Below are positions 2,891 to 36,644 of a stretch of DNA of 40,682 nucleotides, piece by piece; within the stretch, counting starts at the first letter, position 1, and each line of letters opens with the position of its first letter. A program made the translations under genes and the position numbers. The stretch spans positions 1 through 40,682 of the IMG/VR virus record IMGVR_UViG_3300042380_000181; one strand, written 5' to 3'. The notes under the pieces are model-generated. The model saw nothing but the letters and a program-made list of their open reading frames with translations. It made no database searches and was not told the DNA's origin. This DNA is from a virus.

Positions 2891-2917
2891 AGCATCGTAG
2901 TGAAAACGTCAACGTGT

Positions 2918-5578
2918 ATGGATGAAAAAAATCAAGAAATTATCGAAAAAGTCTTAGCCTATAAGCTGGAGGAACATCCAACGCTTCCGTCGCCGAATAA
3001 GCGGCAGCGCCTGGAGATGATCGAGAACATTGGCCCCGAGAAGGTACTCGACCTGTTCTTGATGCGGGAGAACAAGATTAAGGCGGAACTCAACGACCCC
3101 ATGCGCTATGGCCACGAGCTGCCGCACTGGCCGGATGCCGATAAGCTCTTGGGGCGCTTTAACGAGATTGTCGTCCTTGGTGGGAACAGATGCCTGGCTG
3201 GTGAAACGGAGATATACGATCCTGTGGCAAAAGTTTACAGGCGCATAGATCAGATTACGGAGCCGTTTTACGTTGAGTCCTGGGACTTTAATCTTAAGAA
3301 GAAAGTACAGGGACGCGCATCAAAGCCCTTTCAGAAGCCTGTTGATAACTTATACCGCGCTGTTCTAAGCAATGGAGAACAAATTCTTTGTTCGGCAGAG
3401 CATCGAGTTTCAACTCCCTTCGGATGGAGTTCCCTAAAAGACATCGGACTCGGAGGGCTTGTCGCTTCTCATCTGACAAGCAAAAGTTGGTTCTCTTCTT
3501 TCCTTGGTGCGCTGCCCTTATTTTTGCTAAACCTTCTTCCGTCCAGCGTGGGCACTTACCTTTCAAGGTTGCGCGAAGATGTTCTGCATTGGAGCGAAAC
3601 AGTTCAAGATTTTCTATCCGATTGTCCGTCGTCACTTCGTTTTTATGATGGACGACTTCTTTTGGGTCTAAAAACCGTCCTAGGTGGGCTTCCATCACAA
3701 GTCGATGCTCAAGAATGTAAGGAGTATGTTTTTTACGATGAGGATGGTCGGGCGCGTAAATCTCAATGTACCCGTCCTTATTTTGTATTCGGCCTCCACG
3801 CCATCCTTTGTGCAGGTTCCCGCTTCTTGGCCCGCTTCTCGGACATTGGATGTTATATTCACGGCACACCTTCGACAGATACGCTGTTGAGTATTTGTGA
3901 CCATGTAAGCGCTGAATTTCATCCAAAATGCTCTGTAAGGTGTCTCCACGCGCGATTGCGGCGGCTAGTTCAGTCTGCGATATCATTGATTTTAAGGGTG
4001 GTCTCATGGGCTTTAACTAAACACAACGAACTTAGACTCGTCAAGGTTTATCATAAACGAAAAGATACAGTATGGGATATCTCCGTTGATGGGTATGTTA
4101 ACTACTTTATTGGAGGCATTTTACATAAAAATTCAGGCAAAACTGAGTACGCCGCCAAGCGTATGGCCCAAGCTTTCATCGGCACTGACCTCAATGGACA
4201 GGCGCCTGACTGGGTAAAGGAACGCCACGGTAAGCGTAACATCCGCATCTGGTGCTTGCACACTACCCACATGACCAGCGTCTCTGCCCAGCAGAACGTC
4301 TTCTATAAGTACCTGCCGCCTGAGATACGCAACATTAAGCGAACTAATCATACGCAGATTAGTTTTAGCCAGAAGAACGGGTTCAGCGACAATACGGCGG
4401 TGTACATGGGTAACCAGATCTGGTTCCTTAACTACGCCCAGGACATTAAAGTCGTCGAAGGTGGCGAGGTGGACTACGTCTGGTGCGATGAACTTGTCCC
4501 GCAGAACTGGCTGGAGACTCTTCGCTACCGTTTGGTTACCCGGTCCGGCAAGCTGATTGTCACCTTTACGCCGGTGCAAGGCTACACCCAGGTCGTGAAG
4601 GAGTACATCAACAGTGCCAAGGTTACCGTTAGCCGTAAGTCGCCCCTGTTGCCAAATAACAACGTCCTAACCGTACCCAAGGGTGAGATGCCGTATCAAG
4701 CCGAGAACCTTTACGGACGACACGCCTGCATCTGGTATCATACCGAGCTCAACCCGTACAACAACTGGGAGCGCATGAAACAGGAGCTTTCGGGGCGCTC
4801 CAGCCACGACATCAAGATCCGCGCTTATGGTTGGGCAGATCAGACGGCTGGCTCCGAGTTTCCGATGTTCGGTGACCACAACTTGTGGAAGGGTGACGCT
4901 GAAGAGGTTATCCCTGAAGGTAGCAACTACATGGCTATCGACCCAGCCGGTGCGCGTAACTGGTTTATGCTTTGGGCTAGAGTAGATAAGTACGGTATAC
5001 TATGGGTCTACCGTGAATGGCCCGATCAAAGCTACGGTGAATGGGCTTTGCCTAGTGACAAGCCCGACGGTCGAGCTGGCCCGGCACAGAAGGCGGGTGC
5101 TGGCCGTGGGGTGAACGAGTACACCGAGCTTATCTGGAGCCTTGAGACTGCCGGGGACAAGCGTGAGATGATCGTGGACCGCTGGATTGACCCAAGAACC
5201 GCTGGCACAGAGACGATCACTAAGGACGGCGGTGTAACCGTGCTTGATCTGCTTAGTCAGGCTGATAATCCGCTCATCTTTACGCCTGCCGCAGCCCTGC
5301 CAATTGAGGAGCGCGTGCTCTTAATCAATGATCTTTTGTCATGGGATAGAGAAAAACCAATGGAAAAAGGAGTAAACCATCCAAAACTAATGATACATGA
5401 GTCTTGCCAGAACTTAATTTATAGTTTAAAGGAATGGACTGGACAAGATGGACAAAAAGGTGCTAGTAAAGATCCTATCGACGCTTTAGGCTATATGGTT
5501 GTCATGCAGCCAGCCTATTTTGGCGGCTTAGATTGGGAAAAACAATCTAAACGAATGTCTATGACAGGAAGTTATTAA
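2918..5578 (+). CDS. terL: Large terminase subunit interrupted by an intein
   Basis: This is the packaging motor: an ATPase followed by a nuclease that cuts concatemers at the portal. The ATG at 2918 gives 886 aa; a GTG at 2900 would add six residues. Residues 92-405 are an intein (3191-4132). Removing it joins GGNR to SGKT and restores a perfect Walker A motif, leaving about 572 aa, a normal TerL size. A Walker B-like acidic motif (VDYVWCDELVP) lies near 4471-4500, and the nuclease core begins with AIDPAGARNWF near 4932. The portal gene follows after one base. The small subunit may be the 194-aa gene at 38901, which precedes this gene on the circle. Confidence 0.93.
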   Translation: MDEKNQEIIEKVLAYKLEEHPTLPSPNKRQRLEMIENIGPEKVLDLFLMRENKIKAELNDPMRYGHELPHWPDADKLLGRFNEIVVLGGNRCLAGETEIYDPVAKVYRRIDQITEPFYVESWDFNLKKKVQGRASKPFQKPVDNLYRAVLSNGEQILCSAEHRVSTPFGWSSLKDIGLGGLVASHLTSKSWFSSFLGALPLFLLNLLPSSVGTYLSRLREDVLHWSETVQDFLSDCPSSLRFYDGRLLLGLKTVLGGLPSQVDAQECKEYVFYDEDGRARKSQCTRPYFVFGLHAILCAGSRFLARFSDIGCYIHGTPSTDTLLSICDHVSAEFHPKCSVRCLHARLRRLVQSAISLILRVVSWALTKHNELRLVKVYHKRKDTVWDISVDGYVNYFIGGILHKNSGKTEYAAKRMAQAFIGTDLNGQAPDWVKERHGKRNIRIWCLHTTHMTSVSAQQNVFYKYLPPEIRNIKRTNHTQISFSQKNGFSDNTAVYMGNQIWFLNYAQDIKVVEGGEVDYVWCDELVPQNWLETLRYRLVTRSGKLIVTFTPVQGYTQVVKEYINSAKVTVSRKSPLLPNNNVLTVPKGEMPYQAENLYGRHACIWYHTELNPYNNWERMKQELSGRSSHDIKIRAYGWADQTAGSEFPMFGDHNLWKGDAEEVIPEGSNYMAIDPAGARNWFMLWARVDKYGILWVYREWPDQSYGEWALPSDKPDGRAGPAQKAGAGRGVNEYTELIWSLETAGDKREMIVDRWIDPRTAGTETITKDGGVTVLDLLSQADNPLIFTPAAALPIEERVLLINDLLSWDREKPMEKGVNHPKLMIHESCQNLIYSLKEWTGQDGQKGASKDPIDALGYMVVMQPAYFGGLDWEKQSKRMSMTGSY
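3191..4132 (+). other. Intein (314 aa) in the terminase Walker A motif
   Basis: The coding frame enters an intein at Cys1 (codon 3191-3193, CLAGETEIYDPVAKVY, block A) and leaves at Asn314 with Ser as the +1 extein residue. Block B is GEQILCSAEHRVST, with its His at residue 71. Blocks F and G are VWDISVDGYVNYFIGGILHKN. The penultimate residue is Lys, with His one place earlier, unlike the usual His-Asn ending. Between blocks B and F the sense frame shows no LAGLIDADG or HNH motif; that segment is the reverse complement of a separate HNH gene. Insertion exactly at the P-loop codons is typical for inteins. Confidence 0.93.
3294..4007 (-). CDS. HNH homing endonuclease encoded antisense inside the intein
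   Basis: This 237-aa frame runs opposite to the terminase and lies wholly inside the intein. Residues about 8-55 look like a DNA-binding helix-turn-helix (SQTELAAAIARGDTLQSILD, then YLSKVCREYNI). Residues 98-143 form an HNH core: ILEHRLVMEAHLG, then EVVHHKNEVTTDNRIENLEL with the HH pair at 120-121, and a final His at 143. Catalytic-type His and Asn are all present. The start may be Met1 or Met8 (3984-3986). The last ~60 residues lie opposite intein block B and may be dispensable. It is probably the mobility enzyme of the intein, although endonuclease domains are normally fused in sense. Confidence 0.85.
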   Translation of the reverse strand: MRPPLKSMISQTELAAAIARGDTLQSILDEIQRLHGHKYSTAYLSKVCREYNIQCPRSGPRSGNLHKGWRGGRIQNKDGYIEIYAPDHPHRKKHTPYILEHRLVMEAHLGRFLDPKEVVHHKNEVTTDNRIENLELFRSNAEHLRATLKGKCPRWTEEGLAKIRAAHQGKKRTNFCLSDEKRQALRVRCLLGNSIRRELKLDALPNKEFVLHCLEQRGISYQQASERALMRVPVLSS

Positions 5579-9029: not shown

Positions 9030-10085
9030 ATGGCACTTCTTACTGAACCCCAACTTAGCGGTCGCGGTCTACGCGAAGACTTGATGGACATGATTGCGCT
9101 CGTTGACGCAAAGGACACTCCTTTTACGTCGATGGCTCGCAAAGGCAGCAAGCCCGGAAATATGTACTTCCGTTGGCAGTCTGACTCGCTTCCTACCCCT
9201 CAGGTAGGTGGTGTGGTGGACGGCACGGACGTTTCCACCTACGACAACTACGTCGTTGGTTACCGCGCTGAACTCGCGAACTACGCACAGGTGTTCCGCC
9301 GTGCAGTGCGCGTGTCCCGCCTCACTCAGGACATCGCTGATGTCGCAGGTGTGCGTGACGAACTGGCTGACAACGTCAGCAAGGGCATCACTGGCATCAA
9401 GCGTGACATGGAAGCGACCTTCACGTCGAACCAGCTCTCGCAGCAGGACAACGGCACGACTCAGGCCTATCGCACCGCTGGTGTGCAGACCTGGATCAGC
9501 ACCGCTGGTACTGGCACGCCAACTCCCGGAGACATCCCTTTGATCTTCCGTACTCCTTCGACCTCGATCCTCACTGGTGCATCCAGCGGGTTGACGGACG
9601 CAGGTGTGCAGGGGCTTCTGAAGTCGATCTTCGACCAGACTGGCCACTACACCAGCTTCGATGCCATCGTCGGAACTGACCTGAAGCGTGCCTTCACCGG
9701 CTTGCTCGGAACGACGGCTCTGACCACGGTCAGCAACTCCAGCAACACGCTTGCTGCTGGTGCTACCAAGGTGCAGACCTTCCAGCGTGACGCTGCGGCT
9801 GACACCTTCATCCAGAGCTTGGACGTGTTCCAGGGTGACTTCGGAACGGTGCGTCTGCATCCTTCCACGTTCATCGGAACCGTGTCCGGCACAAGCTGGA
9901 CGCCAACTCCTTACAAAGGTCTTGTGCTTGACATGAACCTCATCGAGGTTCGCTACGGCGGAAACGTCGCTAACGTCACTGCACTGCCAGATTACGGTGG
10001 TGGCCCTGCTCGCTTGATCGAAGCAGTTGCTGGCTTGGTTGTCGGCAACCCGCTCGGCCTCGGGAAATTCGACTACTCCTCCTAG
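9030..10085 (+). CDS. Major capsid protein (SU10-like, DUF5309-type)
   Basis: The 351-aa sequence (start MALLTEPQLSGRGLREDLMD) carries the hallmarks of the SU10-type major capsid family. These include DAKDTPFTSMARKGSKPGNM, an FRWQSDSLPTPQ strand, the EGTD-like segment VDGTDVSTYDNY, the long helix VSKGITGIKRDMEATFTSNQ, and a C-terminal beta region (LVLDMNLIEVRYGGN, then LPDYGGGPARLIEAVAGLVV). The fold is expected to be HK97-like. It follows the scaffold gene behind a short A/T-rich leader without SD and is followed by the tandem RNA elements. Codon use is biased to C-ending codons, as expected for a highly expressed gene. Confidence 0.88.
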   Translation: MALLTEPQLSGRGLREDLMDMIALVDAKDTPFTSMARKGSKPGNMYFRWQSDSLPTPQVGGVVDGTDVSTYDNYVVGYRAELANYAQVFRRAVRVSRLTQDIADVAGVRDELADNVSKGITGIKRDMEATFTSNQLSQQDNGTTQAYRTAGVQTWISTAGTGTPTPGDIPLIFRTPSTSILTGASSGLTDAGVQGLLKSIFDQTGHYTSFDAIVGTDLKRAFTGLLGTTALTTVSNSSNTLAAGATKVQTFQRDAAADTFIQSLDVFQGDFGTVRLHPSTFIGTVSGTSWTPTPYKGLVLDMNLIEVRYGGNVANVTALPDYGGGPARLIEAVAGLVVGNPLGLGKFDYSS

Positions 10086-10332
10086 TAGTTGTTGATTGGT
10101 GACACCTACCCCGACGCGAAAGCGTTTCTTGAAGTGGTGTGACACTCTGGAGAGACAGAGACAATTTTGCGACACCTGCCCTGCTGGCTGGCAATGGCAC
10201 GGACCGGGATTTCTCGGTCTCCGCAGTGGTGTGACTAGCTGGAGAGACAGCTGTCGGCAACGGCCATGAATCGTTGTGGGGAACGCACCTCTTAGTGGCG
10301 TGACACCTCGGAGAGACGGGGACAATTTTACT
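10086..10332 (+). ncRNA. Three tandem covarying stem-loop elements after the capsid gene
   Basis: The spacer holds three related units. Each has a GTGGYGTGAC box followed by a 5-bp hairpin closing an invariant GAGAGA loop: CTCTG/CAGAG (10145-10160), AGCTG/CAGCT (10237-10252) and CCTCG/CGGGG (10306-10321). All stem sequences differ but pairing is kept. The GTGGYGTGAC box is complementary to an upstream ACACC or ACGC segment, enclosing an inner variable hairpin in two units (ACGC-GAAA-GCGT in unit 1, GACCG/CGGTC in unit 2). Units 1 and 3 end in GACAATTTT, which could act as weak terminators. No known RNA class is recognised; the covariation supports a real RNA structure. Confidence 0.65.
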
Positions 10333-10677
10333 ATGATTACAATCCCTACTGACCTAGTGCCGCAGCTTGAGCAAGAATTGCGTAAAGGCTGGCAGAAGAA
10401 CCGTATTGAAGCGCAGGTTCAGGCCAAGCAAAACGAAAAGATCAATAAGCAGAAGCACAGGTCAATAGAAGGATTGGGTCAGCTTACCGCAAGGATTCCT
10501 CCCACGGCGTATCATTTCTGGGGACAGAAGCTCGGATATGAGTGCTGGAACGATAAAGCGTTCATGGATGAGTTTTTGCGTGACAATCCCGAGTGTCGAG
10601 TCAATAGTGGAGGGACTAAAGAAATCCACGTTGGCTGGACACCAACCAATGTTCGTTCCCGTACCGTTTATCAATGA
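10333..10677 (+). CDS. Hypothetical head/neck-region protein (114 aa)
   Basis: The frame is open from 10276, but the upstream part lies in the third RNA element, so I take the ATG at 10333, four bases after its GACAATTTT tail. The protein has a Gln/Lys-rich helical N-terminus (about residues 10-45) and a C-terminal region with HFWGQKLGYECWNDKAFMDE. Its last codons overlap the next gene by four bases. No family is recognised; it is probably a virion or assembly protein by position. Confidence 0.7.
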   Translation: MITIPTDLVPQLEQELRKGWQKNRIEAQVQAKQNEKINKQKHRSIEGLGQLTARIPPTAYHFWGQKLGYECWNDKAFMDEFLRDNPECRVNSGGTKEIHVGWTPTNVRSRTVYQ

Positions 10678-32214: not shown

Positions 32215-32853
32215 ATGAACATCAGCATTAATATAACATACACGTCAGGAACCAAGGTCGAGCTTATTGTCCCGCTGGAAGAGCCAGCACAGATCGTCAG
32301 CGAGCCAGAGTCGCAGCCAAAGAAGCCCGGCAATTGGGTTGACGTAATGAAGCATTGTGATTCGTTGAGTGCGAGTCAAGGTAAGGCAACTGTCGCGCCA
32401 GATCCCATACAGCCTGCGCAGGACTTGGCAGATGCCATGGCCGGCATCCCCATGCTTACGGACGAGGAGCGCGAATTGCTTAAGCCATCCGGTAGACGGT
32501 ACACGTCCGTCCAAGAGATGATTGATGAGCTTAAGAAAGACCCTGATGTGGGCCGAACGATGAGCCTGTACGATATTACGTACATCACTCAAGACGGCAA
32601 GGAGTACAAGGTACCACTTGGACTAATGAAAGACTTTATCACGATCTACGGTGAGAAGACCGTTGAGCAAGAGTTATGGAAGGCCCACGCCTGGCTCGAA
32701 GCTGATCCGCAGCGCCGCAAGACTCCACGCGGCATGGGGCGCTTCCTGAACGGCTGGCTCAGTCGTGCATCGTCAATGGTGCGTACACCGATTAAAACTT
32801 TACTGAAGCGCGATAGCTTAATGTCTACCAATGGAACACAAGAAAGCTGGTAG
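32215..32853 (+). CDS. Hypothetical replication-module protein (212 aa)
   Basis: The N-terminus is a short beta segment (MNISINITYTSGTKVELIVP), followed by a Pro/Gln linker and a C-terminal domain containing KHAWLEADP-like ELWKAHAWLEADPQRRKTPR and GMGRFLNGWLSRASSM. The pattern W-L-x-A-x-P-x(2)-R-K-T-x(2)-G-M-x-R-F-L-x(2)-W-L is common at the end of phage replication initiator or helicase-loader proteins. It directly precedes and overlaps the DnaB N-terminal gene, so a loader or accessory role is reasonable. Confidence 0.62.
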   Translation: MNISINITYTSGTKVELIVPLEEPAQIVSEPESQPKKPGNWVDVMKHCDSLSASQGKATVAPDPIQPAQDLADAMAGIPMLTDEERELLKPSGRRYTSVQEMIDELKKDPDVGRTMSLYDITYITQDGKEYKVPLGLMKDFITIYGEKTVEQELWKAHAWLEADPQRRKTPRGMGRFLNGWLSRASSMVRTPIKTLLKRDSLMSTNGTQESW

Positions 32854-33538
32854 ACGCAGGCCGGTGGAGCTACCCCCCGACACGGTGGTGCCAACTGCAC
32901 TGGAGGCCGAGCGCGGCATAGCTTCAATTGCGCTGAACCATCCTGAGGTGTTTCTGCACCACATAAGCGAGAAGAACTTCAAGGTGAGTGACATCTTCGA
33001 CCCGCTCAGTCACCGGGTATGCGAAATCATCCTTCAGCAGCAAGCCCGCAATGCGTCATCCGAGATTCGCGTAATCTTCGAGAAGTGTCGCGAGACGCTG
33101 CCAGCGACCGAGTTCCACCAGTTAAGCGACCTGTACACGCTGATGCCCATCGCCGGCGCCATCGGTGACCTCGTGGATATAGTCAAGAACACGGCTAAAC
33201 GTCGCACCTTGCAGCATGTAGCTTACGAGACGCTCATGGCTATTAGCGATGCCACCGTGCAGACGCCCGAGCTTCTGAGCGACGTTGTAATGAAGGTTGA
33301 GGGGCTGTCTCGTGAGCTTGCTCCTCCGAAGGTCATGGATACTAAGGCGCTCCTGCTCAATGCACTGACACGCTACGAGACAGGTGACGACGAGTCGATG
33401 CGGATAAAGACTGGTTATTCTGCTATCGACAACATCTGTCCGATACGCTTTGGTGACTTTGTAGTCATCGGTGGTGAAACCAAATCTGGCAAAACCATGC
33501 TGGCACTCAACATTATTGCAAATCTAATAAATGAATAA
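32831..33538 (+). CDS. DnaB-type replicative helicase, N-terminal part with Walker A
   Basis: This 235-aa protein has the DnaB N-terminal helical domain (PTALEAERGIASIALNHPEV, then DIFDPLSHRVCEIIL), the linker, and the start of the RecA-like domain (TGYSAIDNICPIRFGDFVVI). It ends just after the Walker A motif GGETKSGKT and its helix (MLALNIIANLINE), followed by two stop codons. The remaining helicase motifs are in a separate gene at 36060, 2.5 kb away. The break lies in the loop before the second beta strand, so the two chains could assemble into an active helicase. Confidence 0.85.
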   Translation: MEHKKAGRRRPVELPPDTVVPTALEAERGIASIALNHPEVFLHHISEKNFKVSDIFDPLSHRVCEIILQQQARNASSEIRVIFEKCRETLPATEFHQLSDLYTLMPIAGAIGDLVDIVKNTAKRRTLQHVAYETLMAISDATVQTPELLSDVVMKVEGLSRELAPPKVMDTKALLLNALTRYETGDDESMRIKTGYSAIDNICPIRFGDFVVIGGETKSGKTMLALNIIANLINE

Positions 33539-35151: not shown

Positions 35152-36091
35152 TGTGGATACTACCGAAACAATTACACACGTTGGCCTCTGTGCAGGATAC
35201 GGGGGCATTGAACTTGGACTTAAACGAGTCCTCCCAGCTTTGCGCTCAGTCGCTCTTTGTGAGATCGAAGCCTTCGCCATTGCGAACTTGGTTGCAAAAA
35301 TGGAAGCGGGACTCATGGACGCAGCACCTGTTTGGACGGATCTTAAGACCTTCCCTTGGGAAAGCTTTCGAGATCGAGTGGACCTCCTTACTGGCGGTTA
35401 CCCCTGTCAGCCTTTTAGCGCAGCAGGAAAGCGACTCGGAGCAGAAGACGAGCGACACTTGTGGCCACACATTGCTAAAGGCATCGCTATTCTCAAGCCA
35501 AGAGTTTGCCTATTTGAGAACGTCGAAGGACATATTACGCTGGGACTCTCCACTGTTATCAGCGATCTGGAAGAAATGGGTTACAAAGTGTCGTGGGGAA
35601 TATTCAGCGCGGCTGAATGCGGTGCGCCTCACCAGCGGAAACGAGTGTTCATCTTGGCCGTCGCCGGTGGCATCGGAGGTACGACAAGGTTTTCAGGACA
35701 GATCACGCGGCATGAAGGGCAGTCAGGAATCACTTACTACTGTGGTGCTCAAGCATGGCCTTCCCGCCCCGGCCAACCACAGCACGCATGGGAGCCGCCC
35801 AGAGTCGTGGGCAACGCCCAGATGTTCAATGGCACAGGACAAGCAGGAGGACAGTGGAAAACACAGGCTACGGGAACAGGCGCAGCACAACACGAACGGC
35901 AAACTCAACCCACGCTGGGTGGAGACGTTGATGGGATTACCGATAGGCTGGACGATGCCGAGTTGTACGTCACCTGTGACAATCGCACAGACGAGTTGCG
36001 CCTCCTCGGAAACGGCGTAGTTCCAGCCACAGCAGCGTTAGCTTTTACCACATTACTAAATGAACAAAGGAATACTCGTCATCTCGCTTGA
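35138..36091 (+). CDS. DNA cytosine-5 methyltransferase (Dcm-type)
   Basis: The ATG at 35138 gives 317 aa. Conserved motifs appear in order: I (VGLCAGYGGIELGL), IV (GGYPCQPFSAAGKR, with the catalytic Cys in PCQ), VI (LFENVEGH), VIII (HQRKRVFILA) and X (LLGNGVVPATAALAF). The region between VIII and X, where target recognition lies, is Gly/Gln/Thr-rich and less protein-like than the rest. In the same stretch the overlapping +1 frame shows a strongly conserved-looking sequence. The enzyme probably protects phage DNA from host restriction. Its 3' end overlaps the helicase C-part. Confidence 0.85.
   Translation: MEHDNVDTTETITHVGLCAGYGGIELGLKRVLPALRSVALCEIEAFAIANLVAKMEAGLMDAAPVWTDLKTFPWESFRDRVDLLTGGYPCQPFSAAGKRLGAEDERHLWPHIAKGIAILKPRVCLFENVEGHITLGLSTVISDLEEMGYKVSWGIFSAAECGAPHQRKRVFILAVAGGIGGTTRFSGQITRHEGQSGITYYCGAQAWPSRPGQPQHAWEPPRVVGNAQMFNGTGQAGGQWKTQATGTGAAQHERQTQPTLGGDVDGITDRLDDAELYVTCDNRTDELRLLGNGVVPATAALAFTTLLNEQRNTRHLA
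35151..36020 (+). CDS. Overlapping +1-frame protein in the methyltransferase gene (289 aa)
   Basis: A second frame is open for 870 bases over the methyltransferase. It starts at a TAATG overlap with the preceding gene (MWILPKQLHTLASVQDTGAL) and ends with a distinctive tail: NECSSWPSPVASEVRQG, GSQESLTTVVLKHG and LNPRWVETLMGLPIGWTMPS. I know this tail and the LPKQLHT start from many phage methyltransferase loci, which argues that the frame is translated. Alternatively it is the true C-terminus reached by frameshifting. Ser/Trp/Leu richness is expected of an overprinted frame. Function unknown. Confidence 0.6.
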   Translation: MWILPKQLHTLASVQDTGALNLDLNESSQLCAQSLFVRSKPSPLRTWLQKWKRDSWTQHLFGRILRPSLGKAFEIEWTSLLAVTPVSLLAQQESDSEQKTSDTCGHTLLKASLFSSQEFAYLRTSKDILRWDSPLLSAIWKKWVTKCRGEYSARLNAVRLTSGNECSSWPSPVASEVRQGFQDRSRGMKGSQESLTTVVLKHGLPAPANHSTHGSRPESWATPRCSMAQDKQEDSGKHRLREQAQHNTNGKLNPRWVETLMGLPIGWTMPSCTSPVTIAQTSCASSETA

Positions 36092-36644
36092 GATGCCAGC
36101 CAACCAGATCATCGACCGTCTCGTAGCTCGGCTAGGCAACGTCAGCCTGCGTGCGCTCGCTGAAGGGGCCAAGCATGAGCGCGACATCAGAGGCGTCCAC
36201 AGTGCCATCCAGAAGCTCAATAACAGCCGCTTGGTGGTGCGCGACGATCTCTACGACATAGCGAACATCTGCGCCACTGCGCGGGCTATGGCGAAGTCGC
36301 CGGACGGCTTGGGCGTCTTGTTCGTGGACTACATCCAGCTTGTGCGGTGCGACCTTGGCAAGGACAGCAGCCGCGAGCGTGAAGTGGCCGAGGTGAGCCG
36401 GAGCCTGCGTTTACTTGGCATCGAATTAGGTTGCTTAGTGATCAGCATTACGCAACTAAATGAACAGGGTAAAGCTCGCGAAAGTCGTGCAATCGGGCAA
36501 GACGCTACAGCCGTGATGGTTGTGAAGTTGTCCGATGACGCAGAGTTCCGTGAGGTTGGCATACCCATCCAACGAAACGGCCCGTGTGGCGTGAGTGCAA
36601 ACTTACGCTTTACAGGCAAGACAGCAACATTCCACAATGAATAA
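36060..36644 (+). CDS. DnaB-type replicative helicase, C-terminal part
   Basis: This 194-aa protein begins inside the methyltransferase end and starts exactly where the other helicase gene stops: GILVISLEMPANQIIDRLVA (motif H1a with catalytic-type Glu), then LFVDYIQLV (Walker B, H2), VISITQLNEQGKARESRAIG (H3) and PIQRNGPCGVSANLRF (H4). It has no Walker A motif; that is in the gene at 32831. Together the two genes supply every DnaB motif once. The start context TAAATGAACAAA resembles the one at 33539. It may act as a two-chain helicase. Confidence 0.85.
   Translation: MNKGILVISLEMPANQIIDRLVARLGNVSLRALAEGAKHERDIRGVHSAIQKLNNSRLVVRDDLYDIANICATARAMAKSPDGLGVLFVDYIQLVRCDLGKDSSREREVAEVSRSLRLLGIELGCLVISITQLNEQGKARESRAIGQDATAVMVVKLSDDAEFREVGIPIQRNGPCGVSANLRFTGKTATFHNE

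Follow-up and report, generated by a model that had tools for sequence, protein, structure and literature searches.

What are the three repeated, hairpin-forming units that follow the major capsid gene in the IMG/VR virus record IMGVR_UViG_3300042380_000181, and what do they do? The stretch of this record that we analysed, called the window below, is 40,682 nt long. A reading made from the sequence alone, without database searches, had described three tandem RNA elements, each with a conserved box in front of a hairpin, and the positions that it gave for boxes and hairpins hold: the pattern GTGAC-N5-GGAGAGAC, scanned over the whole window, has exact matches at 10139, 10231 and 10300, all inside 180 nt, and no further mismatch-free copy elsewhere in the window, where base counts lead one to expect about 0.001 exact matches per window. 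Pairing holds in all three stems (CTCTG/CAGAG, AGCTG/CAGCT and CCTCG/CGGGG), and the loop that they enclose is GAGAGA each time. Ordinary folding of the 250-nt region alone is weakly remarkable (z = -1.72); single-sequence folding would therefore miss the element, and the case rests on homologues.

For the comparison with homologues we used a covariance model, R1, built from an alignment (A2) of 31 sequences from other loci, from which the window sequence was absent. Its scores for the three units are given in Table 1 together with the parts of each unit and the neighbouring genes.

Table 1. The three units and their surroundings, in window positions; R1 E-values are rough because the calibration was short.
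Feature	Position	Strand	Sequence or pairing	Evidence or remark
Upstream gene, major capsid protein	9030..10085	+		Pfam SU10_MCP 4.5e-44; phrog_1328 2.7e-41
Unit 1	10098..10163	+		R1 54.7 bits, E 6e-13; covariation
Unit 1, 5' hairpin	10098-10100, 10101-10107, 10108-10110		GGU, loop GACACCU, ACC	
Unit 1, insert hairpin	10114-10125		ACGC-GAAA-GCGU	
Unit 1, box	10134-10143		GUGGUGUGAC	
Unit 1, AGAG-loop hairpin	10145-10160		CUCUG-GAGAGA-CAGAG	
Unit 1, pseudoknot pairs			10103-10139, 10105-10137, 10106-10136	
Unit 2	10168..10255	+		R1 49.7 bits, E 1.4e-11
Unit 2, 5' hairpin	10169-10179		GC-GACACCU-GC	long insert after it
Unit 2, box	10226-10235		GUGGUGUGAC	
Unit 2, hairpin	10237-10252		AGCUG-GAGAGA-CAGCU	
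Linker hairpin, units 2/3	10258..10276	+	CAACG-N9-CGUUG	sequence comparison
Unit 3, variant	10278..10324	+		R1 26.0 bits, E 2.6e-5
Unit 3, 5' hairpin	10278-10281, loop, 10288-10291		GGGG, loop AACGCA, CCUC	
Unit 3, box	10295-10304		GUGGCGUGAC	its GCGU pairs with loop ACGC
Unit 3, hairpin	10306-10321		CCUCG-GAGAGA-CGGGG	
Downstream gene, 114 aa	10333..10677	+		without family match

Each unit consists of an H-type pseudoknot and, 3' of it, a hairpin. In the pseudoknot, part of the GACACCU loop of a small 5' hairpin is paired to the GGUGU of the GUGGYGUGAC box; the hairpin that comes next has the loop (R)AGAG(W). The insert between the two halves is variable (2-60 nt) and can usually be folded into hairpins. 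The sequence-only reading was right that the box pairs upstream. Its plain nested hairpin had to be dropped, since the 5' box folds into a small hairpin of its own, whose loop pairs with the GUGGUGUGAC box. This pairing makes a pseudoknot and not a plain stem, so that pseudoknot-plus-hairpin modules take the place of simple hairpins. Units 2 and 3 frequently co-occur among related phages, where the counterpart of unit 3 is GGUG-AACGCA-CACC. Sequence comparison further showed that the linker hairpin is retained with an altered stem in related phages (e.g. CAACGC/GCGUUG) and is similar to CAACG..CGUUGUGG, found 3' of the cdtI element.

Is the downstream hairpin conserved as a structure? We retrieved copies independently of it by two IMG/VR scans with the 5' box and the GUGGUGUGAC box only, the AGAG hairpin being outside the selection. 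Among the 109 distinct copies from these loci 81 have a downstream hairpin (score of at least 4), compared with 17.8 in shuffles (largest 27), and in most of the remaining copies an AGAG loop is present on a stem that is shorter or shifted. The loops are mostly GAGAGA, with the variants GAGAGT, GAGAGTA and CAGAGA, and the stems vary freely. The 31-copy alignment has compensatory changes at each of the five pairs of this hairpin; as it was picked for pairing, the hairpin-independent count of 81/109 is the fair test. The 5' hairpin varies as well: of 113 distinct copies selected by the 3' half only, 98 close it with C-G and 8 with U-A, a count into which related copies enter separately. Other stems around the GACACCU loop are CAC/GUG, GUCU/AGAU and CUCCC/GGGAG, and units of the third type have GGUG/CACC or GGGG/CCUC around AACGCA. 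The claim of a structured RNA with covarying stems is thus borne out by many homologues that keep both the loop and the pairing; the homologue scans did not reveal a family that lacks covariation, or that keeps the loop and loses the pairing.

The pseudoknot was examined by scanning IMG/VR for boxes altered at one position, with the partner position left free. Pair 6/45 is compensated in all 11 hairpin-retaining variants (7 U-A, 4 A-U) and pair 9/42 in all three; more double changes at 9/42, with loop GACACAU and box GUUGUGUGAC, occur at four loci (L078, L206, L282 and L289). For pair 8/43 this directed scan of IMG/VR found no hairpin-retaining variant. At position 7/44 none of the 14 hairpin-retaining variants is Watson-Crick; this position is therefore non-canonical, and a five-pair ACACC/GGUGU helix is ruled out there. 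In phage cdtI, CACC/GGUG is replaced by AACC/GGUU.

The family is large, with hundreds of phages and mobile DNAs, coliphage P1 included. With a loose pattern for the 3' half we recovered at least 120 stretches of IMG/VR DNA, often with two or three copies each, and R1 gave at least one copy in 57 of the 58 phage or virus records searched whole (HK022 is the exception), a count that is not a frequency, as the records were mostly picked for holding the element. Typically, a genome has one cluster of one to six units and sometimes a second site. By BLAST and R1 we see the element in P1, P7, mEp390 (two copies), cdtI, mEp460, phiV10, SPN1S, Tyrion, PAT1, D6, Cronobacter CS01, Pseudomonas Medea1, Acinetobacter Alexa, Marinobacter PS3, Phaeobacter MD18, cyanophage MinM2, Stenotrophomonas BUCT708 and Klebsiella SopranoGao. 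On the other hand, only two of 369 species genomes in a class-wide sample of Gammaproteobacteria have it, one of them the chosen centre, and this near-absence means that the family is not a housekeeping RNA.

We were not able to match the units to a named RNA class, and neither was the sequence-only reading. Rfam 15 has no model that reaches its gathering threshold in the window (none up to E = 5 at 9950-10500), and in 10 related phage loci no hit falls on the element; Rfam has no family for it. Our literature search found no description of the element, the further put RNAs of King 2011 being outside the comparison. The window units fit the definition of a new RNA family, namely pairing of a loop with GGUGU and a covarying AGAG hairpin.

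The enterobacterial copies form a subfamily with an added conserved upstream domain, about 170 nt in total; those of P1 and P7 sit upstream of ban. The extra domain, CGGCGTATGGCACATGCGTCG..GGTAGCCGGAATGTGCAAGCC, lies 5' of the pseudoknot and is conserved and unannotated in P1, cdtI, mEp390/460, phiV10 and relatives (L296, L297, L305-L312, L377). Modest R1 scores (18-32 bits) and the shared architecture suggest, with modest confidence, that the enterobacterial leader elements are homologous to those of the window. As a prophage element, the cdtI form is present in 1534 of 5426 complete E. coli genomes (~28%), and no annotated feature lies under its copies at any of 40 listed E. coli places.

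Next, we asked where the copies lie with respect to genes. On the locally dominant coding strand we find 250 of 273 distinct phage copies; chromosomal copies are less one-sided (17 versus 9 by strand, with crude ORF calls). A tRNA lies within 300 nt at 39 loci, versus 12.3 expected at random positions; all 79 tRNA-element pairs within this distance are co-directional, and in 19 cases the tRNA begins 3-15 nt after the element. Phage neighbours also include genes for primases, DnaB-like helicases, an HNH endonuclease and the major head protein, and an operon-internal position 3' of the capsid gene is found in two unrelated phages, the window phage and L112. In the temperate phages cdtI, mEp390, mEp460, BUCT708 and Medea1 the element lies 3' of the repressor gene, mostly in the untranslated early-operon leader, which is where nutL and putL sit; the window copies are internal to a structural operon, outside any early-operon leader. 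In Marinobacter PS3 and Acinetobacter Alexa it comes after the integrase gene and faces convergent genes. Chromosomal copies, several in some chromosomes, precede or fall inside mobile or long operons, next to HlyD/MacB/ABC transporter clusters, CRISPR-Cas, DNA methylases, a conjugal CagX gene and phage integrases.

Two chromosomal loci may be mentioned separately. At L359 10745-10788 (OY282447.1, minus strand) an element stands upstream of a seven-gene co-directional run with Cas3 and Cas_GSU0054 (type I CRISPR-Cas), and a Chloroflexota copy (L363 12449-12500, Bellilinea caldifistulae), the same copy as that of L140, has a ParB-like gene on its contig stretch.

The sequence-only reading had assigned the units to the control of genes next to the capsid gene. 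This is too narrow, given that relatives adjoin tRNAs, primase/helicase genes, repressor genes, CRISPR-Cas and transporter operons. The varied neighbours make a ligand-sensing switch tied to capsid genes unlikely, and the association with genes of one pathway that marks a riboswitch was not found among them. A resemblance to the glycine riboswitch (CUCUGGAGAG) is due to chance, the Rfam search being empty.

Strong terminator-like hairpins lie 3' of the element at +197 in cdtI, +218 in mEp460, +135 in BUCT708, +222 in Medea1, +188 in phiV10 and +420 nt in Tyrion. The identical filter gave no downstream terminator in mEp390, SPN1S, PAT1 and D6, with a long-looped candidate seen by eye in mEp390, and no strong intrinsic terminator within 3.5 kb 3' of the window units. 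The early leader of BUCT708 (L312 3320-3910) has, besides the full element, several additional TGAC-hairpins with GGAAAGAC loops, and similar single TGAC-hairpins occur in mEp390 and Medea1.

A published RNA originates in the intergenic leader in which the element of the mEp460 prophage lies. In E. coli RS218 (K1), the 193-nt sRNA-17 was found by RACE and Northern blot and was described by its authors as a trans-acting sRNA (PMC7719688). The published intergenic interval is 1152 nt (PMC7719688), compared with 1151 nt for the cI-DUF2303 gap of mEp460. By coordinate arithmetic, with the orientation assumed and not by sequence, its RACE 3' end falls on the U-run of the mEp460 terminator, so that it apparently ends at the terminator 3' of the element. 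By the same arithmetic its 5' end lies about 70 nt 3' of the element; sRNA-17 thus does not contain the element, and differs from it also in being trans-acting according to its authors.

The best fit, which we favour tentatively and with somewhat less than even confidence, is a cis-acting, put-like antitermination element. Each unit would be a cis-acting RNA module (pseudoknot and AGAG-loop hairpin) that works in the nascent transcript and makes the transcribing host RNA polymerase resist downstream termination or polarity, like the HK022 put RNA. The module may contact RNA polymerase or a conserved elongation factor and may suppress termination; three copies after the capsid gene would then keep the polymerase moving into the subsequent genes. 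The observations in support are the structure, the conservation, the orientation with transcription, and the placement upstream of terminators and tRNA stretches in relatives. Taken together, they are what a processive antiterminator RNA would be expected to show: it would be oriented in cis, lie in leaders and near tRNAs with terminators behind it, serve long or mobile operons and be conserved from host to host. That the sequence is kept in phages whose hosts differ greatly suggests a host partner that is itself conserved. Because the window copies have no strong terminator behind them and lie in a structural operon, we infer the role in the window phage from its relatives only. The placement in PS3 and Alexa, the operon-internal window position without terminator, the lack of a sequence match to put and the modest R1 scores that link the enterobacterial leader elements to those of the window count against antitermination.

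How does the element compare with known antitermination signals? HK022 put is an RNA-only antiterminator made of two stem-loops with a triplex (PMC9378689). Put and the element are both cis-acting phage RNAs of similar size (about 70 nt against about 45-90 nt) with two structural lobes. In cdtI, mEp390, mEp460 and BUCT708 the element shares with put the location in early-operon leaders of temperate phages, whereas the window copies lie elsewhere. Instead of two stem-loops with a triplex, the element has a loop-strand pseudoknot and an AGAG hairpin. R1 has no match in the whole HK022 genome, and candidate putL/putR stretches (two mutually similar stretches, picked by inverted similarity and not by annotation) are unrelated to the element in sequence; homology to put was therefore dropped. 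With lambda nut (boxA/boxB, N protein) the element shares an early-leader phage hairpin with a conserved loop and a freely varying stem. Lambda boxB is a GNRA-like pentaloop, whereas the loop here is an AGAG hexaloop in a pseudoknot module, conserved across unrelated hosts and not matched to one phage protein.

The main rival to antitermination is transcript processing or self-cleavage: a self-cleaving ribozyme, or a structure targeted by an RNase, would cut polycistronic phage RNA between genes or before tRNAs and set mRNA ends and stability. We consider this less probable than antitermination; a transcript that is cut or stabilised 3' of the capsid gene has to be taken seriously as an alternative. 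The tandem copies, the two operon-internal sites after capsid genes, the sites between genes and just 5' of tRNA 5' ends, and some 22 conserved loop nucleotides resembling a catalytic core would all suit it, as would the start of sRNA-17 downstream of the element. Small phage self-cleaving ribozymes (hammerhead, pistol, twister) are likewise small structured RNAs between phage genes; however, no Rfam ribozyme model matches the element and the consensus letters differ. Moreover, the AGAG loop and position 44 accept changes, and the repeated placement ahead of leader terminators is left unexplained.

A still less likely role is in RNA stability, the pseudoknot blocking exonucleases and protecting upstream or downstream RNA with the polymerase unaffected. 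Phage capsid genes are normally highly expressed, and a compact pseudoknot and hairpin on the 3' side of such a gene would suit this, as would the independence of the element from gene type, but neither the leader and pre-terminator placement nor the invariant loop letters, superfluous for a mere roadblock, are accounted for. Control of translation, in which a 5'UTR structure with a GGAG-like loop sets ribosome access to the next gene, appears improbable: the ATG of the downstream gene follows unit 3 by about 9 nt, and in the window and close relatives the distance from the end of the last hairpin to an ATG is about 10 nt, yet about 19 elements are directly 5' of untranslated tRNA genes, and loops such as CAGAGA or GAAAGA are poor Shine-Dalgarno sequences. 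Most improbable is a repeat acting in DNA through its palindromes (REP-like, recombination linker or attachment site), for although units are reshuffled like cassettes among related phages, some chromosomes hold several copies and integrase genes adjoin, the strong strand bias with transcription, the non-adjacent loop pairing and the G-U pairs within stems suit single-stranded RNA. CRISPR/TIGR-type guide arrays are excluded by conserved unit sequence and irregular spacing; promoters for an RNA polymerase of the phage were rejected too, as none of the large ORFs tested encodes such a polymerase and covarying stems would be needless.

Two further observations concern other parts of the window. 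A DnaB-like helicase is divided between two ORFs at 32831-33538 (profile residues 154-377) and 36060-36644 (381-580), with the break just behind the Walker A motif; the ~2.5 kb between the halves encodes a PD-(D/E)XK nuclease (DUF3799) and a C5 DNA methylase, and an Rfam search of the region found no intron. The large terminase subunit (2900-5578) has a weak intein-splicing match (residues 128-409) between two terminase-like stretches.

In summary, a structured RNA in hundreds of phages, in P1 and in more than a quarter of complete E. coli genomes is without an Rfam family, or annotation at the places inspected. It is possible, though we hold it with less confidence than antitermination itself, that it represents a second class of RNA antiterminators, far larger than the first and made up of portable modules that help foreign DNA to escape host termination; with the same reserve, the users of this class would be phages, prophages, conjugative and biosynthetic islands and one CRISPR-Cas operon, in several bacterial phyla. 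Were the element an antiterminator, it would account for the way in which some temperate phages run their early operons and would offer a compact, portable part for terminator read-through; if it is a ribozyme or a processing site, it would likewise be a new class. Since the element is present in P1 and in cdtI-type prophages, the question can be tested in laboratory E. coli.
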